Below, in pieces: positions 20,857 through 61,937 of a stretch of 64,000 nucleotides of DNA. Where the stretch lies: assembly GCA_963931865.1 (NCBI GenBank), contig OZ007505.1, positions 15,528,034 through 15,592,033 on the forward strand. Direction: 5' to 3'. The notes below the pieces were generated by a model. That model had not been told where the DNA came from, made no database searches, and saw only the letters and a program-made list of their open reading frames with translations. This stretch comes from Axinella damicornis. Taxonomy: Eukaryota; Porifera; Demospongiae; Axinellida; Axinellidae. The position numbers and the translations under genes are program-made. The stretch's first letter is position 1; the number at the start of each line of letters is the position of its first letter.

Positions 20857-20989
20857 ATCCACACTAGATGAAAGTATTAGCTGATTGCATCCTAGTGGCT
20901 GTTCATTCTGGCTTCAGCTTCTAAGGTGAAAATAGAATGATGTTATGGTTGCAGACTTCACAGTTTATGGACTGAGGTGATATGTGAGA

Positions 20990-21090: not shown

Positions 21091-21471
21091 AACTTATTGA
21101 GATGGTGTGGTTGTTGATTATTTGAGTTTGGCTTGTTGTCGTGTGCGACAATGAAATAAAGGATCATACATACTGTCATGCATATCAGTCATGCAAATTG
21201 TGAATCTCCTTGAATAACAACATTAAATTTTGACCTTTAAAGTTGCCCAATGTCAGAAAAATCATCTTTCTAATGTAACATTAATTATGACATACATATG
21301 TCACGTGAAGACTGAATTAACATGATTGCAGGGGAGCTAACTGTTGGTGAATCATTCAGTTTGTGTGATATAATTATAAAATGTGAATTGGTTAAGCTAT
21401 AATTGTCCGAACTCATGGATGAATGTACAACATAAATGTAAGGAACTTAAACACACGGTGGTGATAACATG

Positions 21472-23274
21472 TTATATTGAGCCATAGGCTATCAGGCTGT
21501 TCACTCCAGCCTGTGCATGAGAGACAGTAACTCCCTCTCTGTCACTTGGATGGCTTGTTGATGGCAGAAGTGGTCTGTACATGTCTGGATTCACAATCCT
21601 ATCTGGAAGATCGTCAATGTTGTCAGCTTCCTGAGTGTGCATGTGCTTGTTATTACTTTCTGTGTGGAAAATTTCCTTAATCCTGCCGCAACAAGTACAA
21701 AACAATCTCGCTTGAGACAGGAATTTGTACAAAATGAAGAAGATAAAGTAGAACAGTGGAACGATTCCAGTTATATATGCCGCCGTATGAATAGGAACAG
21801 CAGATATATTTAAGGTGGATCTGACCCAAAAGTTTATCAAAGCTAATATTGCAAACACTAAACAGTCAACAATGTTGAATATGTTAGTTGTGTATGGACG
21901 CAAAAGAGCAAAGAGAAGTGATGCTATCACTGGCATTGGCTCAAATATCAAGGACGGGTGATATTGAAGACAAAGCGTAACAGATATACAATTCGAAAGA
22001 GCAAGTAGAATCCAGCAAAGTAGCGATAATCACGCGTGCCATTGGTTCCATTTTTGTAACATCCCTGGAAGGCATCGGCAAATGTATGCAAGGGGTGCCA
22101 CCTTATCCTAGTACAGTGGCCAAGACTCCTCTGGAATAGTTTCGTAGGGTACAGAAGGAGGATTAATAGCGGAAGTGCTACAAATACCAACATCACAATT
22201 ATTGCAAGTATAGCGAAAGGAAGGTGCTGTCTGCTGAAGTACTCAATTGATGCGTCATAAGTCAAAACAGTGCCAACACGGTCACCTCTGTCATTGGAGA
22301 GTCGTGAAAATTCCAGAACCTCTGGGATTCCATCTTCCTTTGAAACAGCCAAAGCCAAAGCACCTGTGGAAAGGCCTCCACATACACACGACCACCCTAA
22401 CCCCTCTGTCATACATCTCAATACAGAGATAAATCACCACCATCAGAAAGAGTGGATAAATTGCAACAACATACTCCAGAGCTAATGTATGAAGTGTGTT
22501 CATGTCACTGCTGACGCAAAAGGGAGGGATGAAATATCGGAAGAAATCTAAATTCCAGAATCCATAAAACGTGAGTACTCCCAAGGACAGAAAGTATAAA
22601 GGTTTTGAAGCACTGCTGTAATCAAGAACGGAATTTTGGTTTGTAAGAATTGTGCTCATGCTTGTAATGAACTGGCATAGAAAAACAAAAGCATTCATGT
22701 TAGCAGTTGTTGTATGAAAATTGAAAACTATCACCAGAAAGCAAAAGAGTGTTGAAGGAAGCAAGGCAGCTGTGATATACACGAACCACCCATACCATGC
22801 ATCTAAACATTCCACACACTGACGTCTGTAAGAGAGAACAGCAGCCCCCAAAGCTTGTTGGCATTGGCCACACAATAGACCAGTTCGGTTCAAGTCACCA
22901 CACATGAAACTGTTTAGTTGAGAAGTATCGTTTGGGAGAGTGATGTACAAATGCTGGATATTGGGATAGTGATAGTTGAATGGGCAGTTACCCAAGAAAG
23001 TAGCATTGTGTGGCTCATCGTAAGTCATACATGTCCAAACACTCAGGTCATCATTACATTTCACATCGTTTGATGTGTGGCCACACTGACATGTGGTTAT
23101 TCCATTAACTGCTCTCTTCATGAACCAAGTTGGACAGTCAGCTTGTTCATCTATTGAGAATTCGTATGTATCATTTTGGCAGTGGGTGTCAGTGATGTCT
23201 GGGCCTGGCTTTATGGCATTGCTTCCACATACAAAGAGGAGTACTACGTGCAGCAGGTAAGCTGCCATCTTCAA
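21472..23274 (-). pseudogene. Tandem membrane-protein family, copy 3, two frame breaks
   Basis: Reads as three overlapping frames: 22291-23274 (signal peptide MKMAAYLLHVVLLFVC to NPRGSG), 21948-22421, and 21472-21951 (tail ending IAYGSI). Against copies 1 and 2, about 71 bases are missing at 22316/22317, removing the helix GFATFLLLSYSKLL. One further base is lost near 21955, just after YLLFRIVYLLRF. The remaining sequence is well preserved, so inactivation is recent. A 71-base deletion is hard to explain as base-calling error, making this a real pseudogene or a badly truncated receptor. Confidence 0.8.
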
Positions 23275-23639
23275 CCGAAAATGATCCGATTATCTGGTTG
23301 GCGATTCACCTTCAACCTGCAGCGTCGGTCACAGATCACTGTAGCACTAGCTAAATTAATATAACGTGTTAATGCTTCGAAGTATCTCTAACTACTTACT
23401 ACTGAACTAGACCTGAACTCACATGCAGTTGTTTAAATACTTACGCCTATGTCACAGCAAGCGTTTAAAGAAATGTGTGGAGAGGAGCACCTATCATTAC
23501 GAAAGTTGATAGGGAAGCATGGCTGTGTGTGGGGGGAATCTTCCCACATGCCAGATGAAACCCTTGGTATACCCTGGTATAGATAAATAGAGAACGGCGC
23601 TACTGCGTTATCTGATACCCGCAAAAGCCGGCCGGCAAC

Positions 23640-25676: not shown

Positions 25677-26463
25677 ACACACTCATCACCCTCACCCATA
25701 GTAGGCCATCACACACACTCATCACCTCACCCATAGTAGGACCATCACACATGCCAGGGCCGACGCCACCAGTATGGCCGGTACGGCCATGGCCGTACCA
25801 GTTTTGTGGAGGAAAAATGGTGTTGCTGGGATTCTGACTTACGAGCCGCGACCATAAGGCCAGGCAAGAGCGCATGATGACATCATTGTTTTACAGAATG
25901 CTCCATGTTATCATGAGTCTTGGTTTTGATTTTCATGGTCTATAGTAGGACCATCACACACACACTCATCACCCTCACCCATAGTAGGACCATCACACAC
26001 ACTCATCACCATCACCCATAGTAGGACCATCACACGCACTCATCAGCCTCACCCATAGTAGGACCATCACACACACACTCATCACCCTCACCCATAGTAG
26101 GACCATCACACACACTCATCACCCTCACCCATAGTAGGACCATCACACACACTCATCACCCACACCCATAGTAGGACCATCACACACACTCATCAGCCTC
26201 ACTCATAGTAGGACCATCACACACACTCATCACCCTCACTCATAGTAGGACCATCACACACACTCATTAACCTCACTCATAGTAGGACCATCACACACAC
26301 TCATCACACTCACTCATAGTAGGACCATCACACACACTCATCACCCTCACCCATAGTAGGACCATCACACACACTCATCACCCACACCCATAGAAGGACC
26401 ATCACACACACTCATCACCCACACCCATAGAAGGACCATCACACACACTCATCACCCACACCA
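25677..26463. repeat. 37-bp minisatellite with an internal insertion
   Basis: Unit CCATCACACACACTCATCAC + CCTCACCCATAGTAGGA is repeated roughly 17 times with small variants. Between about 25752 and 25945 the array is split by about 195 bases of unrelated sequence (GGCCGGTACGGCCATGGCCG and on), probably a transposon fragment, after which TATAGTAGGACCATCAC resumes. Confidence 0.9.
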
Positions 26464-35465: not shown

Positions 35466-37282
35466 ATGGCGGAAGGGGACGACGGAACAGGGGGTTCTCC
35501 TCGTCTGGAGGACCGGGCGACCGAGGGCTGGCTGACGCCTGAGGGACTCCAGCGCATGATTACCGCCTCAGTGGCGGCAGCGCTGAGGGGCTCCCACACC
35601 CACGACCCGTCCGCTCCCGCCGGAGCCGGTGAACCCACGGGGACGTCTACGTCGGGTAAGTCACTTTACATTGTAGCTGGCAGCCGAAGGAAGGCCGGAC
35701 GGTGAGAGACCGTTAGGTCGGGCAACTCGTTGCCAGCTGAGAGTGTCCAGGCCACAGAGGCCAGCGGGGTGTCTAGGCCGTGGGAGGCCAGCTGCGTGTT
35801 CAGGCCGCGGGAGGCCAACTGTGTGTTCAGGCCATGGGGGGCCAGCTGTGTGTTCAGGCCGTGGGAGGCCAGCTGTGTGTTCAGGCCGCGGGAGGCCAGC
35901 TGTGTGTTCAGGCCGGGGGAGGCCAGTTGTGTGGGCAGGCCGGCGGAGGCCAGCTGGGTGTTCAAGGACAGCTGAGGTTCAGGCCACGGGTGGTCAGCTG
36001 TGTGCCGAGGCCATGGGAGGCCAGAGAGGTGTTATGGCCGAGGGGGGCCACCAGCGTGACGTCAGGTCAGAGGAGGCCGTTTGTGTGTGGTTAGGCAGCG
36101 GGTTGTGTGCCAGTGATGTGGCAGGTCGCAAGAGGCCAGTGCTTGAGGGGGAGTGGTTACAGTAGGCCAGGGAACGTACAGAAGGGGCTCCCACAGTGTT
36201 TGACCAACACTGTTTTTTCCCCTCAGAGGTGGGGCTGGGTGTGTTGCCCTCAGTGGAGAGACTGGCAGGCCTTGGCTTACCCGTGGCTGATGCCGGGGGA
36301 GAGACTGCAGTGGTTGGAGAGACGATGGCAGTAATGACTGAGGACCCCTCTGGTGGGAGGTCCGCGGAGGATGTGTCCCAAGAAGGGGGGGGGGAGAGGC
36401 TGTGAAAAGGGCCAAGACCTCGTCAGCCACAACTCCATTTCTCCTTAGCGAGTGTCTCGCGCCAGTGCCTGCGAAGCTGGTTGACAAAATTGTCAGGGGG
36501 GATTACGTCGACATGGCGGAGTTGCTCCGGGACAATAAATTATTGAGGCGGAGAGGAGGCGGGCGGGGGACACCCCGTCCTCCAGCTCATACTCCAAGCA
36601 CTCACACAGGCGGGAGGTGCCCGATTTTCTATCGTGGATCCAGTGCTTTGGGGTATATGCCAGCATCGTGGCCAGTCATAAGCCAGAGAGGTTTCGCCAG
36701 TTAATGGCATACCAGACCATTATGATCCGTGAGGCCCGTCGGTATGGGGGCGACGGATGGCAGGGCTACGACACGATGTTTAGACAGCTGGCGGCCACAG
36801 TACCCGGTACTGACTGGGGCCAACTGAACTCAGCTCTGTACACAGTTACATTTATGGCCCAACAGAATGGCAAAGGAAAGACCTGCCAGTACTGTTTAGA
36901 GACAGATCACCAGAGCGCAGACTGTGCGTTGGCCCCCAAGAAGCCGGCAGGGCAGACTATGGGGCAAGGAGGACTGGGTCTCCCGACAGGGGCAGGAGCT
37001 GAGTCCCGCAAGCAAGGGAGCTTCGGTGGAGGATGGTCATCGGGCGGGACGGGCTCAGAACTTCGCAGGTCGGGGTTCACTAGGTTCGGGCGTGGTGGTC
37101 GTCGGGGTGCCTATCAAGGGGCACAGCCAACAGCCAAGAGGGCCTGGAACGCGTGGAACGAAGGAGTTTGTGAGTTCCGCAAGCAGTGTCGCTACCGCCA
37201 CATCTGTGTGAAATGCGAGGGAGACCACCCAGCAGTGGCCTGCAAGGCGGTGATCACCCGGCCCCCAAGCAAACCGGAGTGA
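35466..37282 (+). pseudogene. Gag-like ORF of the Ngaro element, probably spliced, frameshifted
   Basis: Opens MAEGDDGTGGSPRLEDRATE from an ATG embedded in an ATGGCGG (YY1-like) context. A consensus donor (GTAAGT at 35656) and a TTTTTTCCCCTCAG acceptor (36226) join in phase to EVGLGVLPSVERLAGLG. The frame then breaks at a G9-10 run near 36390 (to ECLAPVPAKLVDKIVRGDY) and again near 36600 (to VPDFLSWIQCFGVYA). The C-terminal part has a CCHC zinc knuckle (C-QY-C-LETD-H-QSAD-C) and a second Cys/His cluster (CEFRKQCRYRHICVKC), typical of DIRS/Ngaro Gag. The homopolymer break could be a sequencing error. Confidence 0.7.
35656..36226 (+). other. Putative intron of the gag ORF, filled by a 27-bp minisatellite
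   Basis: GTAAGT..TTTTTTCCCCTCAG. From about 35748 to 36060 it holds about ten variant copies of AGGCCGTGGGAGGCCAGCTG + TGTGTTC, which generates spurious repetitive open frames on both strands. Confidence 0.6.
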
Positions 37283-37455
37283 GCCGCAACTTGGACAAGG
37301 TGGCAATTGGTGCCAGGACACAACAGTTGTGTTATCGTTGCCTTTGAGGGGTATACGTGTATACTATTATGATGTTGATGAACCAACTACGTAATTTATG
37401 GTGGGCTTTAATCAGGGGCGGCTGGACCCCTACTGTATTATAGAAAATTTCTGCT

Positions 37456-38484
37456 TATGCAGATCCAGTTGACGCAGTGTTGCCCTTTGGTCTTAGATCG
37501 GCCCCCAAAATCTTTAACTCCCTTGCTGATGCACTGGCGTGGATACTACAGCAGAAGGGAGTGTGTGCTCTGCTTCATTATTTGGATGATTTTTTGCTAA
37601 TTGGGAAGCCACACTCAGATGAGTGTGCAGTGTCTCTGGAGCTGACCGAAGCAGTGTGCCGGCTGTTGGGAGTACCATTGGCGATGCTCAAGCGGGAGGG
37701 TCCCTCATGCCTCCTGGTGTTTCTAGGAATCTTGATTGATACCATGGCAATGGAGCTGCGGCTACCGCCGGAACGTCTGGAGCGGCTAGTAAGAACAATT
37801 TGCCAATGGTGACGAAAGAAGTCCTGTACAAAACGGGATCTGCTGTCACTAATTGGGCTCCTCCAACATGCCTGTCGAGTGGTAAAACCGGGCCGATCAT
37901 TTCTACGTCGGATGATTGATTTGTCGACAACAGTGAGGGAGTTGCATCATTTTGTTCGTCTCAACAAGGGCTTCCAGTCTGATCTGGAGTGGTGGGCAAT
38001 GTTTCTTTCAGACTGGAATGGGGTAAGCCTGTTGTCAACAGTGGTTCGCAAGCCTCCAGATGTGATTGTAACATCTGACGCCTCAGGCAAGTGGGGCTGT
38101 GGCGCATTTGCGTCTACTGGGGAGTGGTTCCAGTGCGTGTGGCCAGAGGATTGGAAGGAGGTTCATATCACAGTCAAGGAGTTGATGCCCATCGTCATCG
38201 CAGCAACCCTCTGGGGGGACCGCTGGCGTGGGAAAACGATCCAGTGCAGGACAGATAATGCTGCAGTAGTGGCCATCGTTAACTCAGGCCGCAGCAAGAA
38301 CAGTAGCCTGGCAATGCATTTGATTAGAACTCTGTTTTTTGTAATGGCCAGGTTTGACATCGCAATTGTTGCTGTGCACTTGCCTGGGAGGGAGAATGAG
38401 GCGGCGGATGCCCTATCACGTGACCGCCTCCCTCTCTTCTTTGCCCAGGTTCCCAATGCCTCAGAGGCCCCGCCCCGTCCATAG
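37456..38484 (+). pseudogene. Reverse transcriptase / RNase H of the Ngaro element, truncated
   Basis: Reads DAVLPFGLRSAPKIFNSLAD, then the catalytic YLDD (HYLDDFLLIG), the primer grip region FLGILIDT, and an RNase H domain (VIVTSDASGKWGCGAF, VKELMPI, RTDNAAVVAIVNSG, GRENEAADALSRD) with its D-E-D-D residues visible. An in-frame TGA at 37810-37812 interrupts it after TICQW. The fingers region that should precede LPFGLRSAP is missing: only about 170 non-coding bases separate it from gag, so RT motifs upstream have been deleted. Confidence 0.8.
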
Positions 38485-39507
38485 TGCCACAGGAGGTACT
38501 CGAGCTGCTGATCCTCCGCCGTCCAGACTGGACCTCCAGGGACTGGAGGAATCTGTACGCTTCTATTTTTCGAAAGGGCTTGCCAGCTCAACACAACGCA
38601 CATGCAAGTCAGGGAAGTCCCGGTATTTGAAGTTTTGTACAAAGGCTTCAGTCATCCCGCTGCCAGTATGTGAGAAACATCTGTGTTCATTTGTGGCGTA
38701 CTTGGCCAAAGAGGGCTTGAAATTCCGTACCATTAAAGTTTACTTGTCAGCTGTTCGACATATGCAAATTGAGGCTGCGATGCCGGATCCTTTTAAAGGG
38801 TCACCGATGGCCAGGCTAGAGTATGTGACGAGGGGTATTAAAAAGCATGAGGCCGAAATGAAAGTGGGGCAGCGGCCACGACTTCCAATTACTCCACCCC
38901 TTCTCCTGAAGATGAGGACAGTTTGGGAGCCAACGCCGGGCAACAGCCACAACACGAAGATGCTGTGGGCGGCATCATGCCTGTGCTTTTTCGCCTTTAT
39001 GCGAGCTAGGGAACTAACGGTACCCGCGGAAGGGGCGTACGATCCGTCGGTCCATCTGAGTGTTGGGGACGTAGCGGTGGACGACACGAAGCGACCGACG
39101 TTAGTGCGGGTCACCGTGAAACAGTCCAAGACGGATCCCTTCCGCAGAGGGGTCGACCTATTTGTCGGTCGTACGCGGTCGCTACTCTGCCCAGTAGCAG
39201 CCGTCTTGGACTTCCTTTGCGTTCGGGGGACCTGCCCAGGTGCTTTGTTCGTTTGGGCGGATGGCCGTCCCTTGACGCGGTCCCGGTTCGCGGTGGAGGT
39301 CCGGAGCGCTCTTTCTCAGGCGGGCGTCGATCAGTCGCAGTATTGCACTCACAGCTTTATATTGGCGCGGCTACAACGGCGGCGGCAAAAGGCATTGAGG
39401 ATTCAATCATCAAAACCTTGGGCAGATGGGAGAGTTCGGCATACCTGCAGTACGTGCGCATCCCCAGGAGCCAGTTGACGGGTGTGGCATCTCGCCTTAC
39501 CCAATGA
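38354..39507 (+). pseudogene. Tyrosine recombinase of the Ngaro element, frameshifted at HxxR
   Basis: An N-terminal SAM-like core-binding region (STQRTCKSGKSRYLKFC) is followed by the catalytic domain: first Arg in FMRARELTVP, Lys/beta region VRVTVKQSKTDPFRRG, and CTHSF for the HxxR box. At 39358-39361 the frame changes, and the expected Arg after HSF is lost. The continuation (IGAATTAAAKGIEDSIIKTL, then GRWESSAYLQYV with the nucleophilic Tyr) is in another frame, ending 39507. The protein substitutes for an integrase and would join a circular cDNA. Here it is inactivated. The start overlaps the RNase H end, as is usual in these elements. Confidence 0.8.
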
Positions 39508-43191: not shown

Positions 43192-46100
43192 TTTAGCGAG
43201 CAATGCTAACCCCCCCTACCAGTACCTGTGGGAAGAAAAGGTTTGACCTACAGCATGTACAGGTAGCGTCCTTTCCAGGCTGTTTTTGAAGGAGAAGTTA
43301 TCGACTCAGACATTAGCAGCAGCCTTGCTGCCTATCGAATTGTAGTGACAGCTGTATGTACTTGAACTGGTGACTGACTTTGTCCCCAGAGAGTTGAGGA
43401 TTTCAAGGAGCAGAGTCCGCACTGCCTGCAGTGTGGGTTTCAGCTGGCACTAGAGCAAGACTCGGTGGTGAGGCACCTTGGACTGCAGCTGATTGAGCAC
43501 TTTGTCAAGTAAGGGTCTAGTAGTATCCTAGCTTTCCTCTGGGACTCACACCCCAACCAATCACAGAGGAATTGCCTGAGAGTTGAAGCTGGAATTTGTT
43601 TGTGATCCCATTGTTCAAGAGCGGGTTAAATGCAAAATTAATCATGTGACACCCCTTCATGTAGTACTGTATTGCCACAATATTCATCGCAGCTCACTTA
43701 TAAGTGCATGTATTTGCTGTTAGGCACAGGTTTGATAAACTCTCGTCCCAGCTGTAAGTGCTGAAGCCTTCTTCCAGAATAAACTCTGCCATTTTCAATC
43801 CTACGGTGTGGAAAAAAAGCTATAATTCTGAATGAAGCACACTTCCTATTCGAGGAATGTCTTGCCTGTTTCCTTCGTGTTGAGATATATAGGTGCATGT
43901 GCTTAATAACGTGCGAGTATGGTATTGTGTTTCCAAGATACCAATGCATTTAATCCAATTTCAGCCCGTGAATCAAGATTGGAAACATGAATTCCCCCGG
44001 TATCCACTACTGCTCCTAGAGGTCCTTTAATTCTTCTTGTTTGAATTCGGGCTGTAGGAGAGATCATAATTATGGCCTGTCAGTGGTATTGTTTTGGTCA
44101 ATTTGACTACAGCTAAAATGTATTTTAGGAAGACAATACGTACATGACTACGTATATTGCAAGTGCATCATCAGGAAAATGAAATGCAGGTAGTCGGTGG
44201 AGACCAGGCGTTACTGCATGCTCGCATTTGTTTGCCTGATGGTACATGTACCTGTCAGTTTTACTCATAGCGGAATAGTAGTTCAGTCTCGGCCACTGGA
44301 TTCCAGGCATTTGTCATTAATTGCCATTTAAGCACCGCCCAGTTTTTTGTCTCTTGCAGTATGGAAAAGTGGGAGAGGGCCTGGTATCTTTCCTCATGTG
44401 AGCATGATGTAATCGAGAAATGGCAAATATTTTCAGAATGAAAAAGCAAATTAAGTTTCGCGTATTGTTCAACCATTACATGTTCAATGCTTGGTGTGTA
44501 TGACAGTCGCCCCCCGCTAGCTAGATATGTGTAGTAAGTTGCCTGGTACCTTAAGTTCTTCTTGCTGTTCTGAGTCCCAGTACACCCACGTTCAATCAAA
44601 CTGGTATACCATTGGTTCTATCCTGATGTCACTCACATGAAGAAAGACACCAGGCCCTCTCCCGCTTTTCCGTACTGCAAGCGTGGAAAAGCTGGGCAGC
44701 GCCTGGGAATGAGGTTGTGGTTTACATACTTCATGGTGAATCTGAATCATGTGGTCATTGGATATGTTCTGCAGGTATAGGTGGAATTCTCTCCAGAAAA
44801 TTGAACGGAAGGAGTTCAATTTGCAGCTGCTCCAGTATATATCTGATGTACGTATGTATTAATATGACTTGGCTAGCACTGTAGTCTCCCATTAATATGC
44901 CCCACCATTTTGCACACTCCTTTGAGTCTAAAGTAGGGAGGGGGCATTTATTCGAAAATTCGATTCGTTTCGATTATACGCCCCCGCCCCCACAGACATG
45001 AGGACTTGATGAGATCGAAATTTGCTGTAGCTATCTGGACGAACAGCAGCAACGTTGGTCCTGTACTACAAGGCATTTCCCAAGTCAGCTGGCACTATAC
45101 CAACCCAAGATTGGCAGCGAGATAACTTGCATCATCAGTGCTAGTGGCGACTGGAGGTGAAGACTGGGTAGTTCCAACGTGTGTCTATATCTTTGGGAGG
45201 AAACGTATAATGTAATTACATATCTTCGCTAACCTAAAAGCTTCGGGATACTCATGCGCGCTCCGTGCGAAATGTTTTGGAAATGTTTCTCTAACCAAAA
45301 ATCTCTAGTACAAAGAGCGTGAGCAACTTGATTCTGGTGGTGGAGGTGCGCTATCACAAGGTGCAGGGCTATACAGAAGCTTTTACGGATACGCTGTATA
45401 GCCGTGCAAAAGCGAGCAGTTCAGTTCACCAAAAAGTCGTATTTACCGCTTTTCTCGAGCGAGACAGCAGATAAATTTGCCAAGGATTATGCTATCAAAA
45501 AGAGCTTCTGTCATGCCCTGCACCTTGTGACAGCGCACCTTGTGACAGCGCACCTCCACCACCAGAATCAAATTGCTCACGCTCTTCGTACTAGAGATTT
45601 TTGGTTAGAGAAATTAAGTATACATTTCCCAATACATTTCGCACGGCGCGCGCACGAGTATCCCGTAACCTTACACTTCAAGCTGACTTTGTAAATTACG
45701 TAAACTAACAGAACAACTCATGGATTACTGTACGAACGTTTTATACATTATGATCTTTGTCCTAACGCGATTCTCTCTTTCTCTCCACCTCTGCCTGTGT
45801 GTGTGTGTGTGTTCATGTGTGTCTGTGTGTTCATGTGTGTGTGTCTACAGAGTGTTCTCCCCAGTGACCGTGAAGCAAGCTATGTGAAGGAGAGCCTGGC
45901 TAGAATCACTGTCGAGATGGCCAAAAGGATGTGGCCTCAGCACTGGCCGAGCTTGTTCTCCGACATGAACACACTTACTCAATGTGGGGTATGTAGAGAA
46001 TGCACTTAGCCAATCTAAGGTACCGTAGGCGCTCTAATTATGCGTCCTTTCTAATTTTGCGTCAAAATTTCTCAAACCAATAATTTCCAATAATGTGTCG

Positions 46101-49100
46101 CACTCCGGGGACTAATTTGCGTAACGCGATTATAACGGCAGCAAGGCAGCTACGTAGCTCGAAGCGCACACAGTACCGTTGAACGGTGAAGAGGGCTCAT
46201 CACATCACTGCCTATGAATGTTGATGTATAAGGACACAGTTGCGATATGGCTGGGACATCAGTGAAGGTACGAGACAGCAACTCACTGCCCCAGGATACG
46301 GACGCCCCATGTAGGAGAAAAGGCAGCGACAGTCCGACAACCGGGAACAAACACAACCGCTATGCAATAGCCTTGTTTACACTCGTCTGACTTTAGTACC
46401 TAGCGAGGTGTTTTCTAATCATGCGTCGAAGTTCGTCGCCGTTTGGCTGACCGAATTTCTATTGTTGCGTTGCATTTCAAAAATAATAATTTTTTGAGCG
46501 ACGCATAATTAGAGCGCCTACGATACATGTACACTGTATGTACAGTAAAGCACTCACTCAGTGTGGGGTATATGTACAGAACACACTTACTCAGTGTGGG
46601 GTATGTGTGTAGAACACACTCACTCAGTGTGGGGTATGTATAGAACACACTCACTCAGTGTGGGGTATATGTACAGAACACACTCGCTGAGTGTGGGGTA
46701 TGTATAGGAAATGAAATTTTGCGAGATTGTGAGTCGATCATTCCTGACCTCGTTCCCAGGCTGGGAACGGCTAGACCTGGAGCTGTATGACTGCTTCTCA
46801 CTGTGGTGGGTGTAAAGCAAGTGTCCGTGGTACATTGTTACACTTCTCCCCTCCCCTCCCACCCCCGATTTTCAAGGTCTCAATAATTGGTTTCCCTGTA
46901 TTTTAGAAGAGGACAACCTCCTACAAAGGACGAACTGTAACTGTGCCCAATGTGTCCTCTGTTGAGAGGTTTCATTCTTCAATCACACACTCATGTAGTG
47001 AATCTTGTGAAATTGCCAGAGCTGACTATAAGATTATTTGGTCTCTAGAATTCTGGGATGGGTTAAGTAATCAAGCTTGAGTCTCACCTTAGGAATTGTA
47101 GTAATGGTGTCATGTGTTTGAGTAGTGAATTAGCAGTGTTGTAGTCATGCAGTTGCATAGTGGTGATGTCCTGCAAGATAGTGCCAAAAGCTAGGCATGG
47201 AGACCTGGGGACGAGGTTATGTGTGAGGTGGTCAGCCAGAATACAGCGGGGAGGGTGAACTGCGTGGCTAATTTTAGCACTTGTAACTTTAATGACCCAA
47301 TAGGTGTACATAAGTATGTGACTCTCAACTCAGAGATACAAGATGGCATTTATCGCCACCTAATAAGCACTTCACCTTTCCAGATATACAAAATTGTTAT
47401 AAAATTTTTTTTGTATAACTTCACTAATTATCTCTTCATGTTCGAAAACTGAATGCTATCATGCTTAGCCATCATTATCAGCACTCAGGGCTGTGCATGC
47501 GAGATATTTGTACATGTATCTGATATTGGAGATGATTGTCCCATTGAATCCAAGAGTGCATGAGTGTCTTCAAACTGGCTTTCCAGGTTGTTGTATAGCA
47601 ACTGTGGCTCAGCAAACCATCTGTTATCTGACGTACTATGTGACATATTTGTACAATGTCGGAGTGGTCTGCTGTAACAGTCTGATTTGCATCCACGGCT
47701 GAAGAATCTCCGTTTGATGTAATAACCGAATGCTGAAAGAGGGAGGTAGGGAAGGAGAGGGAAGATGTAACCTACCGCTCCCTTTCTAGAGGAGACTCCA
47801 TACTTTAGCATTGTGAAATAGATTAACACCAGTGTGATCCCGAGTGTGATCAAAAGGCCAAAGAATGTGATCACCCTCAGAAGTCGAAGAATCTTTATTC
47901 CAACTCTCCTCTGACAACTTGAAGTGGTGTCATTGTTGGTGGTAGTTGGCTGCAGCAGGTGGGCCACTGTGACTATGAAACAGAGGACAACAGATACTCC
48001 AGTCGCTAGTAAAGGAATCGTGTCTCCTGGGCTGACAATAGTTGTAATAGTAAGGGGAATGACACTCATGGCAACCAGCTGGACGCTGACCATCAAGTGC
48101 CACATGGCGAAAGTCTGGATGATTTTGGATCGAGTGTTGTGTGAGAAGCAGCGGAAGAAACAGCTGCATAACTTGTCTATTGCTGCTGGGATGGGGACAC
48201 TGGTATCTTTGAGTATGCATGCAGCTATGATGAACTTGACCATCAGTGCAAGGGGCAGGAGCACCATCTTGGCAATGACTGCAGCCATCAAGTCTGTGTA
48301 CATGTCTGTGCTGTGAAGATCCTTGCACAAACTTGTTTTTGGATGAAGTATGCATGTTCCTGTCCTAGGGTGGCCAATGCACACTTCAACAAGAGAGCCA
48401 ATCAGAAACAGTGTATTGATAACAGCCAACCCTATGATGGTAGCCGAGTAAATAGGCGTGAGTTGATATGAAGAAATGGCAGTCTGCTTGAGTTTGTTGT
48501 AGCAGTGAGGAGCAAACTGTGCTGATACCATTACAACAAATATATTGAGGAAGATAAATACAAGCAGAAGTAAAACCCGAATAAAGTATGGTATATTGTG
48601 CCTGACACTGGGATCGTTTCCTTCTGTGATCCAGAAGTCATGTCTGATTGCGACATATCCTCTGTCTTCACTGTTCCATGATTCTGGTATCCCATGGGCC
48701 TTTGTATAGGCCTTGATCTGTTTGTGTATTTGTGTGTACAGTGTATGTGTGAATGTGGTGTGTGTATGTGTGTGTTGTGTGTGTGTGTTGTGTGTTAAAG
48801 GACCCACTTCAGGCTTTAATTATGTCCAAAGCTAACACCTATAGTCTTGCAGAAATAGCTACAGCCATGTGAGTTCAGTGTATTTGGACACATACCCAGC
48901 TCAGAAGTGAAGTCAAAGTAGTCTCCAGTTCACTGGAAGAGGGCATGCAAGGTAGTGACTCAGGACGCAGTGTAAGATCTATACTGTTGAACATGCTTGG
49001 TCCGATATTACTATAAATTGTGTAAAAAATAATGTTTTCAAAGGCAAGCAACTCATCAACTGTGAGCAGAGCTAGGAGGGAGGATGAAGTCCACTCATAC

Positions 49101-52100
49101 CACCAACACTTGTTACCGTTGCTGAATGCTGGTGCACCACTTTGGCCCTTGCTGTTACTACAGTCCTCAGACTGTATCTGCCTCACTTCAATACAGACTT
49201 TAATGGATATAGCTGGAGAGACAGTCCTGTGTAGCGGAAAGAATGCTTGGCGCAGTGCATAGAGCATCTGGGAATTGTTCACTAGAGAAGCCTCCAGTTT
49301 CCGATAGAGAGGGTAGAGGTAGCAGAAGTGGTCATCACGGCTACAGTAGGCCTGGCAACCACCAGTAGCCAGGCTCAGCAGTAGCACAGCAAGTATGATG
49401 GCACTCTGACTCGTCATCATCATCTAGCTACTTGCAACTGTGGAGAGCAGCTTCTTGTCTTAGAGTTCAGGTGGGGGCATTTTCGCATACCTTACAATCT
49501 ATGTAAGTATAAAGTCTTGTTGAAGCATCCCATCCAGAAATGAAACAGATAAGGTTTTAGGGATTTACTTTGTACTTCACGGGGGGGGGGGGGGGGGGGG
49601 GGGGATGCGAGGTTAAAGTAATGAATTCCTGTGTGTACATGTGGATGACTGAGTGTTACTATTAATGCTGATAGCCATAAGGTTATTTCCGTAACCATAA
49701 TATTAATATTGGGTAACCTTGTAATCTTTCATCGGTGCTTGCAACTTTGAACAAATTTTGATAGTCTCATTCAGCAACAAACTAGAGTAGCCTCCAGTCT
49801 CTGATAGAGAGGGTAGTGGTAGCAGAAGTGGTCATGATGGGTACAGTAGGCCTGTCTCATCATCATTGTCATCATCATCTAGCTACTTGCAACTGTAGAG
49901 AGCAGCTTCTTGTCTTAGGGTTCAGGTGGGGACATTTTAGCATACCTAACATAAACATCGAGTCTTGTTGAAGCATCCCATCCAGCAATGAAACTGATAA
50001 GGTTTTAGGGGTTTACTTTTAATGCTGATAGCTACATATAAGGTTATTTTCTGTAGCCATAATATTAGGTAACCTTGTAATTTTTTTCAGTGCTTGCAAC
50101 TTTGGTGTCTTGAGCAAAATTTAATTGTCTCATTCTAGCAACAAATACAAAAACTAACTACATCCATGTATACCCTCCCATGCACGTGAGCTGTTCAGAA
50201 ATGTTTCTTAAAACAATGCCTATAGCTGCTAGTGTGGGTTTGGCCAGTGCAGGGCAAGCTTAGATTTTCTTTTTACAAGTTGCAGCCGCACTCCTGGTAG
50301 CCTGTCACTGTGCAACTCACGGGACGTATCTGTATGTTGTTGGGGCGAGGCTGAGTGAGCCCCACAGAGACATGTAAAACATCTGTATGTCTGTATACGT
50401 GTAATAAACGCTTCTGCACTGCAGGAGTCACACAAGACATAGTTGTATGCATATTCAACTCCGCTGATAATTAAGCGAGTGTATTGCGCAAATGGTTTGA
50501 GTATGTAAGTTCAGAATATTCTCCAGGATCCTCTATTCACTTGTGGCCAAGTTATCCCACTGCATATCCTCTAGGATGGTTTAAGAGGCTCTAAGACTTT
50601 TACATCTAGGTGGCGTTCTGTCATCAGTTCCATCCAGTTGGACAAAACACCCACAATTGACGTGTGACAAAGAGAAAGTATTTTCTCGGTGGCAACAGAT
50701 GACTAGTTTACTTATGAAGCTCACATGAATATTCGATGTTCGACTATCTCATATATACACTGCCCAAAAGATACTGATTTTGTTGGTTAGCCCATGCGCA
50801 GCATTGTCCAGAAATACCTGTATACACATATAAGGATGTGGGATATGCTGTGTCACAGAATGTATGAGATTCTCCTTGTTGACAGGCATATGCTATGCAA
50901 GGTAGAAGTTCACTCAGTTGCGGATTATTTCCTAGAGATCGTGGCATTGCTGAATGCTTTACAAGTCCACTCTGTCTTTCTGGACAGAGCCAGTGTGAAG
51001 GTAAGGGGTCGGCATTATCTTGCTGATTTGCTTGCAATGGGGAGACAATCTCGACATTAGTTAAGTAGACATCAATTGGCCCAACACATCCAACTGAGAG
51101 CTAAATGACTATAGCAACACGACAGCTTACAGGTCACTCACTGGCTGTGCTAAGCCCTGACGTTTGGTTTCTATTTGCAGAGACCATGTGGGTTTATTCT
51201 ATGTAGTCTAGATATCCTCTTCTACTACTACATGTGGCCATGAAATCACATCAATAGTACTTTTCACACCTGATTCTAATTAATATATGCCAAATATGGT
51301 CTGTTTCTTTCAGTGTATTTGCCATGGTTTCAATCTGATGTCTAGTTTCTTCTACCAGCCCACCCAGGTGGAGCTCGTCCTGCTGATCTTCCGCCGTCTC
51401 ACTGAGGACATCCACACATTTCCCGAGGGACTCTCTACACTACGCAAGAGAGAGATGGTGGCAGCCCTCAACGAGAACCTGGAGAGGGTATTTGCCTTCC
51501 TCTTGCAAAACTTGGAGGTGAAATATGATGAGAGGGAGGGGTTGAGAGCAAAATGCACGATTACCAGCTGGACTTTGTGTAGCCTCATTCCCAGGCACCC
51601 CCTGTGCACACGGTGATGAAAAACCGCACATTCAAGGGGGAACCTGGGAACAAGGCCAGACTTTGTATACCGTTCTTAGGGAGATGGATAGAGGAGCATG
51701 TAGCTTTATTATAATTGGGATCAATATTGAGTGAATGATCAAATATACTATTCGCTGAACGAGAGAATTGTGGTTTTCAAATAAAACTGTTACTCTGGGT
51801 TGAGCATACTGGTGCATGCTGGGTCCTCAGCAGAGGTTGAAATAACATGCGGTGATCGGTCAATTTCCATGCATTTAGCTAAAATGACCGCACACTAATG
51901 CACTTGTTCGGTAGGCGTGACCAATCAACATGTGTGAATACAGTTACCTAAGTGCATGAGCCATAATGACTATACCTGCAGTGGTTCGAATCTGCCAATT
52001 TCTTTTTTATCTCTTTCTTTATGCATGAGTTCTAGTCAGCCAACCAACATGGATTTGTTGGAGAACCGGTGCCCGTCCAGTCCCGTATTTATAGGTAGTT

Positions 52101-55100
52101 TTTCCTGTGGGCACAGATGTCATGTCCTCTCCACTCTGTAGGCTCCTCTGTCTGATTACCTCCGTCCCGTTGCTCTGAGCGCCATCACTCGCTTCGTGGA
52201 GTGGGTGGAGTTTAACATGCTGCTCATGCAGGACTGCAAATTGCTGAGGCTGCTCTACACCCTCATCGGCTCAGAGGATCTGAAGACAGCTGCCTGCGAG
52301 TGCCTGCTAGTGATCCTGGCAAGAAAGGCAGGTGGTAGAAGAGGTCATGTGATATCGTTAATCTTAGCTTGTACTGAGGAATGATAGCCAAACTGTTCCT
52401 GTGTTGTTGAGCGCTTCAGTTCTGAATTAGGATTATGGTGGGAGTGGTTGCACTCTTTGGCCTAAACTTATGATGTTGCTAGCTTTTTAGTGAAAAACTG
52501 CCACTTGTTCGAGTGGCAACTCACTGGTAGGGCAAACTCACCTTTCAAAATGATGACTCGGGTCTTACTCTCACTTCATGGATACTCTGATTGCATCGAT
52601 CACCAGCCCATACTCGTAGCTTATAGCTCACCCCCAATTAATGCACAGTTACTTGACAAAACCAGCTCATAACGTTGTATACTGACAATTAAAGTTGAAG
52701 TAGCAATGGCAGCCAATGGGAGACAATAGCACTCATAACACCACCACCAAGGTGAGTTTCTGCAACCTATTATGTTTGGGTCAGTGCATGGCAGCGACTG
52801 CAATAGGGTAAAATTTTCATACCCCTTCCCACTGCATGCTGTGAGGTTGACACGGAACAAACTTTCACCTACCAGGAGTGTAAAGAGTATGGGTACAGTA
52901 TTGCTGGTCATTCATTCCTTTCCTTGTCCAATTACGTACGAACCTCCCTGCAATACCCGCACTGATGAACTTCATTTCCTTTCTCTCCAGGGTGACATTA
53001 AACGCACAGCAGAGGAGAGGACAAAACTTCTAGTTCTTCTCTCTAAAGATGCCCTTGATGTTATACTGCAAGCCACTGTGTGCGTTACACATTGTGTAGT
53101 AATTAAACCATATACACTCAGCAGTTACGTACTTCTGCTTACATGTATCAGGAGAGCTTCAAGGCAGTTGATTATTTATTGTCATGTCAATTCACAATTA
53201 TGTACCGGTAATTTAATTATGTCACCATGCATGTTCATAATGCTTCATCTTTCCAGTTTGTTTCCCCTCTACAGCAAGGCTGACGCTATGGGAGTTGATG
53301 AAGAGCAATACTTCTTTTTGAAGAGGGTCTGTCAGGTGCTTGTCCACTTAGGAACCTCCCAGCTGGCCCCTCTCTGGGTGAGTATCTGCATGGATTGCCA
53401 CCAGTCTGGTTTAAGCCAGCTGGCCCCTCTCTGGGTGGTATCTGCATGGATTGCCACTAGTCTGGTTTAAACCAGCTGGCCCCTCTCTGGGTGGTATCTG
53501 CATGCCACTAGTCTGGTTTAAGCCGGAAAGTACGTAGCATAATATTATACATGTAGTGTCTTAGAATGTAGTTGTACAAATTCCACCGATCAGATTACTC
53601 TTGCACTGGTGGGGTGGAGTAAGGTTGAGGGGCAGAGCCATATGACTGCTAGCGCACACACAGTAACTAGTGCACCTTGTATGTCAGTGCTAATGTCTGC
53701 CTTGTTGTAGTATATTGTAGCCAGCCTGTTACGTATTTCGTCGAAAAGGACCTCTGACTCGTGTGTTCTTTTGTTGATGACTGAAGCGCTAGTGTAGTTA
53801 CCGTTGCTATACTCTAAAACACTGAGACCAATGGGATCTACATGATTTAGATAGAAACCCATGAGCCCTTAAGTTAGTAGTGCCTCGCTGCACTCGGGAC
53901 GCTATAACCTAGAGCCCTCAGATTTCTAAATCGCATAGATCACTTGCAGTGTCTAACCGATTTAGAGTATAGCAACGGTAACTGCACTTCAGTTTACATA
54001 TGAGTCTGAGGTCCTTTGTGACGCAATAACAAGACTGGCAATAAGACTGACTATCATTTTAATACTATGGCAAGGCAGACATTAGCGCCGACATACAAGG
54101 CACGAGCAGTCATACCGTAGTCGCGCGTTATTAGGTGCATCTCACTTATAGGCGCATATTTGCTGTTAGGTGCAGGTTCAACTCTCGTCCCAGGTACTCG
54201 CTGTTAAGCGCTGCAGTCTTTTTTCAGAAACTCTGCCGTTTTCGATCATACGGAGTGGAAAACACAGCTATAATTCCAATTGAAGCGCACTTCCTATTCG
54301 AGGAATGTCATTATTAAAATATTTGTTATTAGGCGCATCTCGCTTATAGGCGCATATTTCCTTCCTGTGGAGTTATAGGCGCATGCGCGACTACGGTATG
54401 ACTCCGCCCCTCAACCTGACTCCACACCACCAGTGTATCATTGACCTTTTAGCTCCTCCCTCAAGCTCTTGTGTAGCCACTTGCACCTCCATGGGCCATT
54501 AGTAGCACCCTTGCTGTGTTCAGGACACTACAGCCCAGGTCCCAAATTGCATAGATCCCTTAGTCTCAGTGTTTAGCCTGTGTATAATGTATATAGAGAG
54601 TCCTTGCTAATATATAAGGTCGAAAGCAAGTGCCTGAGATTTACAAAACAATTGAGTTGTTAGGGGAGATGTACCAATCTTCTCTGAGCAGCTCAGATAT
54701 ATATACAAATAAATTCCTTGTGAGTACAATTGACACTCAAAACAGAAACTGGACTTCATCTTCGACCATGCAGTTACGTGTGCAATTGCAAGGACAAGTT
54801 GTTGTGTCTGCCCGTTTCAGTTCTTAGTGGGTGTGATCTTGTTCTTTGCCTCGTCACAGGAGCTTGTAGATGGGGTGCTAGATCTACTCAACCTTGATCA
54901 GTGTACTATCCTTGTGCTAACTTGAAGTACATGCATGAAAAGAGCAGGGCCACAGTGACAAGCCAACATATTCCTACATATTTGGTGCTCATAACAGGCT
55001 CAATGACTACATGTAAAACTTGCAGTTGTACGTTTCGTGAATCAATGTATGGCTTTCCATCATGCGAAGTAGCTTCCTACTTATCGGTAGAACCTACTCT

Positions 55101-58100
55101 TCAATGGAGTCATTCGATCACTACTGATTTCTTTCTGGCTGCTCCAAATGAGATGCATCTCTCTTAGATGATAGAAAGCACTGGAGGGCCGACCAAGCTG
55201 CGAGATACTCCTTGCAGATGTGGAGGTTGCTTTCCTCCATACCCCGGCTTCCTCCTGTGGAAACCTGGAATTGATGCATGCTGTCCTTCAGCCATGGTCT
55301 GAAGCATCCAATCGTAACTCCAAGGTTAGTTGAGGTTTCTGGTGCAACAATTGTCGCAATCTCCACTGCTTCAGACTGTTGAGATGGTGACCTTCATCAT
55401 CCTTAGTGTCACAGCACTGAAGTCAAGCTTGCAGAGCTTTCTCATGCATGCCTATCTAGCAAATTATAGCACACAAGAACGTAGACTCTGGATCACTATT
55501 GTCCGACTTTGAGCTTCCTCTCTCACTAGGCAAGTCTTCCACGTCACTGTTACTTGAATCTAGAGTGCTCGGGACGGCCTGGACATCAAACTTCCTTCTC
55601 TGACCTCCCAAGGGCTTTGCAGTGCTCGGTGGACTAGCCATATAGTAGCTACGTAACTGCAAGGAACAAATATTATTACACTTAAGTGCACCAAAATGGA
55701 TAGGGTGGGAAATTAAGACATTCTTCTAAGATTATCCATGGAGATTTTCTCACGGTATGACGTAAATCACACAACTTTACCAATAAACTTCACGACCTGC
55801 ATCTGCTAACCGTGTGCACTACTGTGGTAAAAGCTGGATCTACTTTGTTGACTCGGAGGTTGTGCAGTTTTGGGGGAAAGTTTAGCCTTGGCTCTGCCTC
55901 TGCCAAACCTTCCCATGCAGGATAAATTGCATGACTTCCGTGGTCGACCTAGTAGATCCTATACTTAGTAATTGCTGTATAGTGATATGTAGTCTGATGT
56001 GTGTTGATCAATCCCTCAGTTCCAGAACTCCAGTTTCACAAGACCAGACACGTTTGAGCTCTATCTTCAGGTGGTACTGGAGTTCACAAAATACCAGAGC
56101 CAGGTATGTAAGATTGTGGTGTGTACATGTTTGTGTACTGTAGGAAACCAAACAGCATGCATCCAGATGGACTCAGTGCTTGTAGGTGTTCAAATATGCT
56201 CTCAAATCTGATAAATATATTCGTGTTTCAACCAATATCAGGAAGTGCACTATTAAATAACTGACCACTAGACTCCGCATCCTCCCTTCCGAGTATAGGA
56301 TCTACATTTCAGAGTCAGTCACATGGAAGGGAGATGTAGAGCTGTCAGAGATTCGTTAGTGTATTATTGGTCAAAACACGTTTATAAGTTTCATGGCTTG
56401 CACATGTAGGCAATCATAAAATCGGCTGCATGTGCTAAGGAGACCATGGAGGGGCTTCAGTCAGTCTGCCAGCTGTATGGAGAATACCGATTAACCATGT
56501 TCCTAGAATCAACGAAGTTGAGTAATGTTCGTCGGTGGCTTTACACCTTGGATAGCAGGGATGTCTGTAGTCTAACTCATCCACCAACTATCCCAAGAAC
56601 TTGCTGTTTTAATCTCATTTCTCCCGTGCTGAATGTGAGACCTGCTTTATTGATTCTCACGTGGACGACCATTATGTCGTGTTCATTGTGCTCTCCAAAT
56701 GACTCTTAAAAATGGATCCCAAAAATGCCATTTAGCCATACTATGAGGTATCAGGTGGAAATTGCCAGTGAACAACACTGACGGTTATAGCTGTATTGTA
56801 CCGGTAGTAGCAAGTGTTAAGCCCTTGCACAGCACAGAGTTTCCATTGTGAATGTGCAAGTTGTCCATGTTGTATCATCTAGAAGTATAGGGGTCAACAC
56901 TGATGGTGATTAATGCCCACCTGAACGTACATTGTGCAGCTGCTGGCCCTGACCTCTGCAGAAGTTTGGCAGACATTTACCACCCACAACCACATCAAGG
57001 AGGACCCTGTGTTCCAGAATTTCCTGCCTGAGGTACTCAAAGTTGTCCAACAGCGACTTATCAAGGTGTGTACCTGACATATTTTGCCTTACGTATGTTT
57101 TCTAGACGTTCAGCATTTCCAGTATCTCTTGCTCTAATATTTGGTGAGGCAAATGTTAAAGACCATGTCATGTGTATAATATGTATGTACCTAACCTAAA
57201 GTCAGTGAACAGAAGGCACCAAGGGGTTTACGTTGATCGTCCATGCAGTTAACAAGAGACAAAGCTTGGAGGCGACACTATAGAGTGCCCAGATCCATCC
57301 ACCAGTAGCCCCACACTGCCATATTGACAAGAAGAGAAGGCATCCCTGCTAGCTGTGTACAGTGTGTAGTCTAGTTAGAGTCTGGATTAAGGTTACGGGA
57401 TACTCGTGCGCGCGGCGTGTGAAATGTATTGGGAAATGTATACTTAAGCTCGCTAACCAAAAATCTCGAGTACGAAGAGCGTGAGCAACTTGATTCTGGC
57501 GGTGGAGGTGCGCTGTCACAAGGCGCAGGGCATGACGGAAGCTTTTATCGATACGCTGTATAGCCGTGCAAAAACGAGCAGTTCAGTTCACCAAAAAGCC
57601 GTATTTACCGCTTTTCTCGAGCGAGACAGCAGATAAATTTGCCAGGGATTATACTATCGAAAAAAGCTTCCGTCATGCCCTGCACCTTGTGACAGCGCAC
57701 CTCCACCGCCAGAATCAAGTTGCTCACGCTCTTCGTACTCGAGATTTTTGGTTAGCGAGCTTAAGTATACATTTCCCAATACATTTCACACGCCGCGCGC
57801 ACGAGTATCCCGTAACCTTAAGAGGCAGCAATGTTTGCCATAGCTGGCATTTGAACCTGGCCATCCGGTTGTCCAATTATGCTGTCTCACCAAGTGATCA
57901 AACAGAATGAGTTATGAAGGCACCCCATAGTATGAGCATCAACTCGAGCTACTGACAACTCAGGAGCTATTAATAGAATCTGATGCAGCTGATAGTCAGG
58001 TACGTACCCTCTACAACTGGAGGTTGTACAGTGGTAGCTTTGACAATCCATTTTTTGCAGCTTGGTGATCCTACACAGCACAATCACATCAGCTCAGAGT

Positions 58101-60470: not shown

Positions 60471-60959
60471 TTCGCGAGTTTTGCGCGAATTACAGGTCAT
60501 TCGCGAAATTATTTCAACGAACATTTTGACACGTGTTGTGCGCCTACAGCTACGTGGACAGTATTCCAGCGTACGCGCGTGACAGCTAGCTTGATGGCTC
60601 TGTTTGTGTACTTCAACAGTGAGGATGGACAGTAGTCGAAGTGTATGCTTCCCGATCCACATGGAGAGTTCTCCCAAGAGGTACCATCTGACATGTGCGA
60701 TATCTGCCAATACTGAAGCTGCCAGCTCGATCCGGCGAAGGTTAGGGGAACGCCCAGGTATCTGAAAAAGAACTCTGAGAGCGTCGAAGTGGGGAAGTGG
60801 GGAAGAGAGTGTCGCAGAATACAACGCACCGACGAAATGGTCTGTGGTACTGTGGATTCGACGTCCGTTTGAACACGCGTGCAAATATACGGGATTCCCG
60901 TGCTGTACCCAAACATTGCGTAGTGCACGTTACTGACTTGCGCTCGTCGAGATTCTACT

Positions 60960-61937
60960 ATGACGTCTGCAGAACCTGGAAGGCGTGCCCCTTACTCCGC
61001 TGATCTGCGTTGGAGGATTGTCTGGCAACGTATAGGAATGGAACGTAGTTTTAGAATGATAGCTCAAAGTTTGAACATCTCGGTGGGAACAGCTTTTAAT
61101 GTGTTCAGAATTTTTGAAGTTACAGGGGAGATTGAACCTAAGCATAGAAAATATTCCGGAAACATCGTTGACAACAGTACAAACTTAACTATTCTGGCTA
61201 TTGTGCTTGAAAAGCCATCCCTATACCTGTCAGAGATAATACAACAAATATACGATTGCACAGGCAAAAAGATCTGTCCCTCAACACTTTGTGGGATAAT
61301 GCATAAGCACGGCATCACCAGGAAAAAAATTCAGCAAGTTGCAATACAGAGAAGTGATCAATATTGTGGTGCTTATATGGCAGAGGTATCAATGTACAAG
61401 ACGAATATGCTGGTGTTTGTAGACGAAACCGGTAAAGATGCTCGAGACAGTGCTAGGAGATTTGGTTATGCATTGAGGGGCCAAACACCTCAGTTTCACC
61501 GATCACTCAACAGAGGTGTGAGAACATCGGTAATTGCTGCAATATCGTCAAGTGGATTGATTGGCTATGAACTACATACTGGTGGTGTAAGTGGAGAGGA
61601 GTTCTATGACTTTGTGAGAGGTACACTTATACCTAACATGAACCCCTTCGATGGAGAGAGTGACAATTCAATTTTAATTTTAGATAACTGTTCCATCCAC
61701 CACGTGGAAAATGTTTTGACCCTCCTGCAACAGTCTGGGATTTTAGTGCTGTTCCTGCCTCCATACAGCCCGGATTTCAATCCCATTGAGCTAACATTCA
61801 GTTACCTAAAGAAGTATCTACAAGAGCACGATGAAATGATTCAGGCAACAAACAATCTCACTGATGTACTGAAATCAGCAATGGACAACATTAATGAAGA
61901 ATACTGTTCAAAGTGGATCTCCAATTGTGGGTACTAA
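60960..61937 (+). CDS. Tc1/mariner-like DD34E transposase
   Basis: Single frame of 325 residues, stop at 61935-61937. The N-terminal helix-turn-helix (SADLRWRIVWQRIGMERSFR, AQSLNISVGTAFNVFRIF) and a second winged-helix segment (CPSTLCGIMHKHGITRKKIQ) bind the transposon ends. The catalytic triad is visible: Asp in LVFVDETGKD, Asp in LILDNCSIHH, and Glu in PYSPDFNPIELTFSYLKKYL, with 34 residues between the last two. The frame is complete and undamaged, so the element may be active or recently so. It lies in the probable exportin-5 intron 13. A candidate left end with CCGTATAG is at 60434. Confidence 0.88.
   Translation: MTSAEPGRRAPYSADLRWRIVWQRIGMERSFRMIAQSLNISVGTAFNVFRIFEVTGEIEPKHRKYSGNIVDNSTNLTILAIVLEKPSLYLSEIIQQIYDCTGKKICPSTLCGIMHKHGITRKKIQQVAIQRSDQYCGAYMAEVSMYKTNMLVFVDETGKDARDSARRFGYALRGQTPQFHRSLNRGVRTSVIAAISSSGLIGYELHTGGVSGEEFYDFVRGTLIPNMNPFDGESDNSILILDNCSIHHVENVLTLLQQSGILVLFLPPYSPDFNPIELTFSYLKKYLQEHDEMIQATNNLTDVLKSAMDNINEEYCSKWISNCGY

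Follow-up and report, generated by a model that had tools for sequence, protein, structure and literature searches.

A 31-bp variable number tandem repeat (VNTR) in human CBS, c.1444_1467+7(16_21), is present in 16–21 copies and is polymorphic in people (PMC2630376). Read from this notation, the unit joins the final 24 coding bases of an exon to the first 7 bases of the intron. The intron 18 VNTR of human ABCA7 has a 25-bp unit; its start coincides with the exon 18 donor, which it includes (PMC5954066). In human IFI6 (6-16), a minisatellite gives one transcript several splice donors (Turri et al. 1995, cited in PMC4526556), and the available text of PMC4526556 states that two downstream repeat units are used as donors. 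In genes of human segmental duplications, minisatellites at exon-intron boundaries (mean unit 30 bp, 4 copies) alter exons or introns, and 27 of them are described as intron modifications (PMC2812944, available part). Intron gain by tandem genomic duplication likewise touches splice-site sequence, with two copies becoming both ends of the intron (PMC3443670, available part).

Two arrays, A in intron 4 and B in intron 8 of an exportin-5 gene, were compared with these systems. Both lie in the window, the whole 64,000-nucleotide stretch of Axinella damicornis DNA that was analysed. Their units start at the exon end or donor and repeat the donor in the intron, as in CBS, ABCA7 and IFI6, and the arrays look like the chance growth of repeats for which human genes already provide examples. 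The anatomy of the CBS unit, as far as its notation tells, is like that of array A, whereas the exportin-5 copies number 3 (array B) or about 7 (array A) and are diverged. IFI6 differs in its short unit of 12 bp and in that the repeat donors are, in the account available, used in mRNA. Donor-including units continue into the intron in ABCA7 as in exportin-5, but retention of one unit in RNA is described for ABCA7 (PMC5954066), which also differs in having 12 to about 427 copies, associated with disease and with skipping of exon 19. The first two bases of the ABCA7 unit are GT and the available text describes no exon part, whereas the exportin-5 units include the exon end. The segmental-duplication repeats belong to recent primate paralogs and, unlike those of exportin-5, are described in the text available as making novel introns or alternative transcripts. 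No donor-seeded arrays in sponges were found in the literature covered, which included few subscription papers.

Exportin-5 gene model

Positions are those of the window, and all features are on the forward strand unless stated. The predicted peptides of exons 4–8 (numbering of the preliminary description) match human exportin-5 (3a6p_A, E=2.7e-43), with exportin-1 as the runner-up (6.3e-9), and on this homology the gene carrying both arrays is exportin-5. Exon 4 (45851..45988) was placed by homology, has GGG as its last bases and predicts the translation SVLPSDREASYVKE...NTLTQCG. The true donor of intron 4, GTATGT (45989..45994), scores 7.24 bits and was placed by aligning the protein over the exon 4–5 join, ...TLTQCG|PTQVELVLL..., with the human exportin-5 chain, which leaves no gap. 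Exon 5 (51359..51517), the end point of intron 4, was placed by homology and frame. Exon 8 (53275..53377, last bases TGG) was located by homology and by a home-made gene finder, and is followed by the true donor of intron 8, GTGAGT (53378..53383; 8.54 bits). Exon 9 (56020..56103), the end point of intron 8, was assigned from a weak tblastn match to human sequence (E 4.9), from the gene finder (56026–56103) and from the score of its donor AGCCAG|GTATGT (9.97 bits); it starts at 56020 or 56026, both in frame. The exon 8–9 join, which draws on the weak tblastn match and the gene finder, is less firm than the exon 4–5 join.

Four gene-finder parameter sets were tried, and two were dropped for chaining whole blocks into false genes, while a stricter set lost the majority of multi-exon genes. 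The chosen set found exons 5, 6, 8, 9, 10 and 11 of exportin-5 and missed exons 4 and 7. It gave the same end for exon 5 but began it at 51338, and misplaced the end of exon 6 by four bases (52331). The GT at 52331 was rejected because splicing there would bring a stop into frame in the following exon, and exon 6 was taken to end at 52327 with a putative GC donor.

Two donor-spanning arrays and a transposon

Array A (46537..46707) was delimited with TRF (period 33, 5.0 copies) and a repeat search. Each unit of ~33 bp consists of the last ~22 bases of exon 4 and the donor, and the best copy of the 30-mer across the exon 4 junction matches at 27/30 positions at a shift of 645. It holds five GT sites, namely A1 (GTATAT, 46568..46573), A2 (GTATGT, 46601..46606), A3 (GTATGT, 46634..46639), A4 (GTATAT, 46665..46670) and A5 (GTATGT, 46698..46703). 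Array B (53359..53524), found by the same two methods, is made up of three 56–57-bp units (TRF period 56, 3.0 copies), the first of which overlaps the final 19 bases of exon 8, and these bases are repeated together with the donor. The best copy of its junction 30-mer matches at 22/30 at a shift of 57. Both extra donors, B1 (53435..53440) and B2 (53491..53496), read GTGGTA and are weakened by a one-base deletion. The preliminary description had reported five downstream copies of the exon 4 end with its donor, three occurrences of the exon 8 end with its donor at 53359–53524, and two arrays seeded across 5′ splice sites; the repeat anatomy bears out all three, with three GTATGT and two GTATAT sites in array A and both additional array B donors weakened.

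Array A is seemingly detached from exon 4 only because a 501-bp transposon has inserted at 46023..46523. This inverted-repeat element, to which no strand was assigned, has ends of ~24 bp that match each other at 23/24 positions and is flanked by a TA target duplication (46021–46022 and 46524–46525). Among 40 scored of 490 candidates in the genome, 39 are further near full-length copies of 89–92% identity. To the left of the element lies part of a decayed second exon 4 junction unit (45998..46020), which continues on the right from 46524. With the element removed, this unit is identical to the exon 4 junction unit at 25/33 positions, a value reached by 0/5000 letter shuffles, and in the reconstructed empty site the decayed copy stands directly behind the exon 4 donor. 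Array A is thus older than the insertion.

The copies are homologous and have decayed. The exon part is conserved protein, which demonstrates that copying ran from exon to intron. Exportin-5 is a clean case in which the events can be ordered, from a conserved exon part to a decayed copy and then a later transposon. Most probably, two unrelated and ordinary tandem duplications chanced to span exportin-5 donors and were tolerated since the first donor still serves. Duplications of about 33 bp and about 56 bp, by replication slippage or end-joining, would each have spanned one exon-donor junction, and the duplicated junctions would then have expanded to small minisatellites in the introns. At exon 8 the extra donors lost one base, leaving them weak, and at exon 4 the later transposon split the array, so that strong copies now stand about 610–710 bp past the exon.

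Two other origins were weighed against the same anatomy. It is highly unlikely that the repeats were left behind when tandem genomic duplication created an intron, a route in which a duplicated AGGT serves as both splice sites. That route shares the raw process, tandem duplication at splice-site-like sequence (PMC3443670, available part), but both arrays are on the donor side only. Array A ends at 46707 and its intron's acceptor is at 51358, array B ends at 53524 with the acceptor at 56019 or 56025, and in neither intron does a duplicate supply both donor and acceptor. Assembly error is extremely unlikely as the source of the tandem copies; short tandem repeats are in general prone to copy-number errors, but these copies differ from one another by substitutions and indels, and a transposon is inserted in array A.

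Predicted effects of the duplicated donors

Chance duplication leaves the exon with an intact first donor, presumably the one used in RNA. This donor would still define the exon, and for that reason the downstream copies would be nearly neutral, able to persist and decay. The alternative that the duplicated donors are decoys regulating splicing through U1 competition, their use leading to decay of the transcript (array A) or to 19 additional residues (exon 8, copy 2), is judged unlikely. Three of the five array A decoys (A2, A3 and A5) equal the true donor's 9-base score of 7.24 bits, the other two scoring 3.82 bits, and use of any of the five is predicted to add an in-frame stop. The unchanged 9-base motif in those three could reflect constraint, but similarity extends over the whole unit. 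B1 use is predicted to add 57 nt, or 19 codons, in frame and without a stop, whereas B2 use would add a stop-containing stretch with a length that is not a multiple of three. There is also a precedent, as the human ABCA7 VNTR, which includes the exon 18 donor, gives a transcript retaining one unit (PMC5954066, available part). However, the array B decoys are weak, at 1.53 bits each (3.62 bits with the cut placed 3 bases later) against 8.5 bits, and neither equals the true donor. The array A decoys are now 579–709 nt beyond exon 4 owing to the transposon, and a very long exon would be needed.

The arrays suggest that a donor junction can undergo repeated duplication while the splice site stays in place, and they offer a simple system in which to study how a donor is chosen among identical sites.

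Chance, donor preference and other genes

A copy was scored when a 30-mer had a match of at least 22/30 in the next 1 kb. Random positions passed at 3.4% in the window and at 5.4% of all 248,603 sampled; by block, 3–12% of random sites had an equally good nearby copy in four of five blocks and 0.8% in the fifth. Two of ten exportin-5 donors passed (P = 0.04 to 0.10, without correction for the large choice of features that might have been singled out), which is mildly unusual for one gene. The predicted-junction test had put two of these donors slightly off (53083, 56092), and with corrected places the count was still 2/10. The location of the arrays at donors is not clearly beyond chance.

In the predicted junctions of the gene finder, a small sample of 51 donors and 40 acceptors, 1/51 donors (2/52 with exon 4 added by hand) and 0/40 acceptors passed. 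None of 50 exon points 40 bases upstream of a donor did so, compared with 2/51 intron points 40 bases in, one of them array B itself, and 2/64 mid-exon points. Extending the sample by 30 kb brought no new predicted junction. The preliminary description had looked to acceptors as the comparison; the sample is too small to separate the two (2/52 donors against 0/40 acceptors).

Donor-spanning arrays are also found in a KDM1A-like gene (L026), an XDH/AOX-like gene (L042), an MRPL55-like gene (L034), an Ig-like gene (L033) and L032. By eye, at least 42 independent donor-pair places were counted among the matches listed, nine dispersed near-identical places being taken as one. Of these, 39 were examined (19 selected by eye because their units were complex, and 20 more), leaving out C5:19900925, C6:494236 and the dispersed family. 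Among peptides picked by eye, 7/10 from arrays and 6/10 from single-motif loci had no Pfam match. The Ig (L033) and L55 (L034) matches are below the Pfam cut-offs, and the kinase-like match of L047 and L048 is weak (best E 0.19). The earlier suggestion that duplicated donors are tolerated holds as a description, as such arrays occur repeatedly in this genome, in genes other than exportin-5. A wider reading, that the genome tolerates and perhaps accumulates such arrays in many genes and uses some copies as alternative exon ends, is unlikely. If it were true, the genome would be a natural experiment in spliceosome behaviour, showing how the donor nearest the exon keeps being chosen although equal copies follow downstream, and the 19 codons that could be added in frame to exportin-5 exon 8 would exemplify an alternative exon end.

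The same loci, with the 0/40 acceptors, could be read as donor-directed amplification, for example if breaks or R-loops form at 5′ splice sites and their repair duplicates the junction. This is very improbable, as the excess is absent from every control run, the acceptor comparison is too small to weigh, and donors are expected among the further loci because these came from a donor-motif search. Array loci are no richer in exon-like upstream sequence than single-motif loci: a score of at least 5 was reached at 10/38 paired-motif and 6/20 single-motif loci, with medians of 1.9 and 3.9, respectively (Mann-Whitney p = 0.11; L048, with the same result as L047, was left out). The donor motif AGGTRAGT has the lowest rate of tandem pairs per single motif of the four motifs compared, at 300/26801 (1.1%), against 535/24436 (2.2%) for its reverse, 900/16530 (5.4%) for the dinucleotide-preserving shuffle AGTRAGGT and 817/29291 (2.8%) for the reverse of that shuffle; these pair counts are rows and are biased by a small number of large arrays, one of which makes up most of the shuffle listing. 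Tandem duplication shows no donor preference in the controls run, and the amplification mechanism proposed in the preliminary description is not supported, on three counts: no clear excess over random positions, the lowest pair rate and no gain in exon-likeness. Donor-centred repeats need not mean a special mechanism. In the first 15.2 Mb of C1, a count by eye gave 9 separate paired places for the donor motif and 12 for the shuffle.

Exportin-5 exons and their donors

Exportin-5 is encoded by plus-strand exons at 43.4–58.2 kb of the window, which is located at C1:15528034–15592033 in an assembly of 226 Mb and 120 contigs. Exon positions are from tblastn using a human probe, and the peptides of exons 4–8 match 3a6p_A (E=2.7e-43). 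Exon 4 ends at 45988 and is joined to exon 5, starting at 51359, and because the protein alignment is gap-free across this join the exon 4 donor is placed at 45989. Exon 8 ends at 53377 (+). Exon 9 (+; start 56020 or 56026, end 56103) is placed with less certainty, from a weak tblastn match (E 4.9), a gene finder and a strong donor. Exon 6 (52142–52327) keeps frame with a GC donor, AAAG/GCAGGT (52328–52333), and a GT site near its end would read into a stop; intron 6 therefore probably belongs to the GC-AG type.

Structure and history of the two arrays

Array A, in intron 4, has a 33-bp period and 5 copies (TRF; 46537–46707, +). Its unit consists of the final ∼22 bases of exon 4 and the donor, plus a few additional bases. 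Of the five donor-motif copies (46568–46703), three equal the true donor in score and two carry GTATAT, and use of any one (5/5) is predicted to introduce an in-frame stop. The exon portion of the unit codes for conserved protein, so exon 4 is the source and the intron copies are derived.

The ∼550 bp between exon 4 and array A is due to insertion of a 501 bp element (46023–46523) with terminal inverted repeats matching at 23 of 24 positions and a TA target duplication. At least 39 further near full-length copies (89–92% identity) are present in the genome, from 40 of 490 candidates scored. When the flanks are joined without the element, a decayed array A unit (25/33 identical) appears directly behind the exon 4 donor, and none of 5000 letter shuffles matched its score. 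Array A was therefore once contiguous with exon 4 and predates the transposon insertion.

Array B (TRF; 56-bp period, 3 copies; 53359–53524, +) overlaps the last 19 bases of exon 8 with its first unit. In both later copies the donor carries the same one-base deletion and scores 1.5 bits (3.6 if cut three bases on) versus 8.5 for the true site. The first of these copies, if used, is predicted to add 57 nt in frame, and the second 113 nt with a stop. By hand count, an exon 9 start at 56020 gives 9 residues between two matched stretches with the first exon 8 donor, versus 8 in the human probe, and would leave 28 with the first array B decoy. The duplicated donors are most likely tolerated because the first donor remains intact; regulatory use of these candidate decoys is a less likely possibility.

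Chance and donor preference

The homology of the junction copies is beyond chance, and the placement of the arrays at donors does not clearly exceed it. Copies that match a 30-base site at ≥22/30 within the next 1 kb are common. Such copies follow 3.4% of positions in the window (3.1% without arrays A and B) and 5.4% of all 248,603 sampled positions; the four 50-kb blocks examined gave 3.4, 7.7, 0.8 and 12.1%. They follow 2 of 10 exportin-5 donors in the window (P = 0.037–0.099, uncorrected for choice of feature). Across 294 kb, copies were found for 1/51 predicted donors (2/52 with exon 4 added by hand) and 0/40 predicted acceptors, a sample too small to tell donors from acceptors, as well as 0/50 exon points 40 bases upstream of the donor and 2/51 intron points, one being array B itself. 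Mid-exon points gave 2/64 (264 kb).

Genome-wide, tandem pairs (motif again after 12–42 bases) number 300 among 26,801 occurrences of the donor motif AGGTRAGT, 535 among 24,436 of its reverse, 900 among 16,530 of the dinucleotide-preserving shuffle AGTRAGGT and 817 among 29,291 of the reverse of that shuffle, the donor motif having the lowest rate. These counts are rows rather than independent loci and are weighted heavily by single large arrays, the AGTRAGGT listing being mostly one array, and the test can exclude only a strong donor excess. Over the first 15.2 Mb of C1, a count by eye of separate paired places gave 9 (donor) and 12 (shuffle). Of 42 array places in the first 100 listed rows 39 were retrieved and 38 scored, together with the first 20 unpaired single motifs listed; by one scoring function, upstream exon-likeness was not higher at arrays (score ≥5 in 10/38 versus 6/20; medians 1.9 and 3.9, p=0.11). 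The preliminary description of tandemly amplified exon-donor junctions holds at exon 4 (five donor copies) and exon 8 (three units), and the donor-amplifying mechanism it hinted at finds no support in these comparisons. The arrays are real, clearly legible and ordinary, and most likely arose by chance duplications across donors.

Comparable arrays and other features

Donor-spanning arrays recur in the genome, as random duplication in a repeat-rich genome predicts, and several AGGTRAGT arrays begin at real exons. In a KDM1A-like locus (L026; LSD1/KDM1A named in 27/29 PDB rows, best E only 0.027), a segment of at least 21 exon bases and the donor recurs twice without a mismatch, and the following exon continues as PKESCVTR in our translation. 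At the start of the KDM1A-like intron (L026:753–1024, ∼270 bp), the 36-bp exon-donor unit is thus present in two more exact copies. Other exons are XDH/AOX-like (E=1.5e-15), MRPL55-like (E=0.001) and Ig-like (E=1.6e-5), the last two below Pfam's cut-offs. SH3 (E=1.5e-9) and GTF3C2 (E=2e-6) exons are real, but the seed is less clear in the purine-rich or GT-rich arrays that adjoin them.

Arrays of this kind are described in human genes, and those of exportin-5 add new examples. The 31-bp VNTR of CBS is named c.1444_1467+7 (PMC2630376), which we take to mean 24 bases of exon and 7 of intron. A 25-bp VNTR in ABCA7 includes the donor of exon 18, and RNA that retains one unit is reported (PMC5954066); an IFI6 minisatellite supplies several donors, as cited in PMC4526556. 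A survey of duplicated human genes also covered tandem repeats located at exon-intron boundaries (PMC2812944). Intron gain by tandem duplication was rejected for both exportin-5 arrays because they end short of the acceptors.

Elsewhere in the window, a 37-bp minisatellite of 14 copies (TRF; 25942–26462) is much longer than arrays A and B. Frames at 36539–39478 resemble, by eye only, reverse transcriptase and recombinase and are probably a retrotransposon, and a 337-residue open frame at 60924–61937 resembles a mariner/IS630-type transposase (by eye only). The minus strand at 13931–23289 contains three relatives, arranged in tandem, of a ∼600-residue protein starting MAAYLL (compared by eye); one is a single open frame (17693–19585) and the two others are split into several frames.
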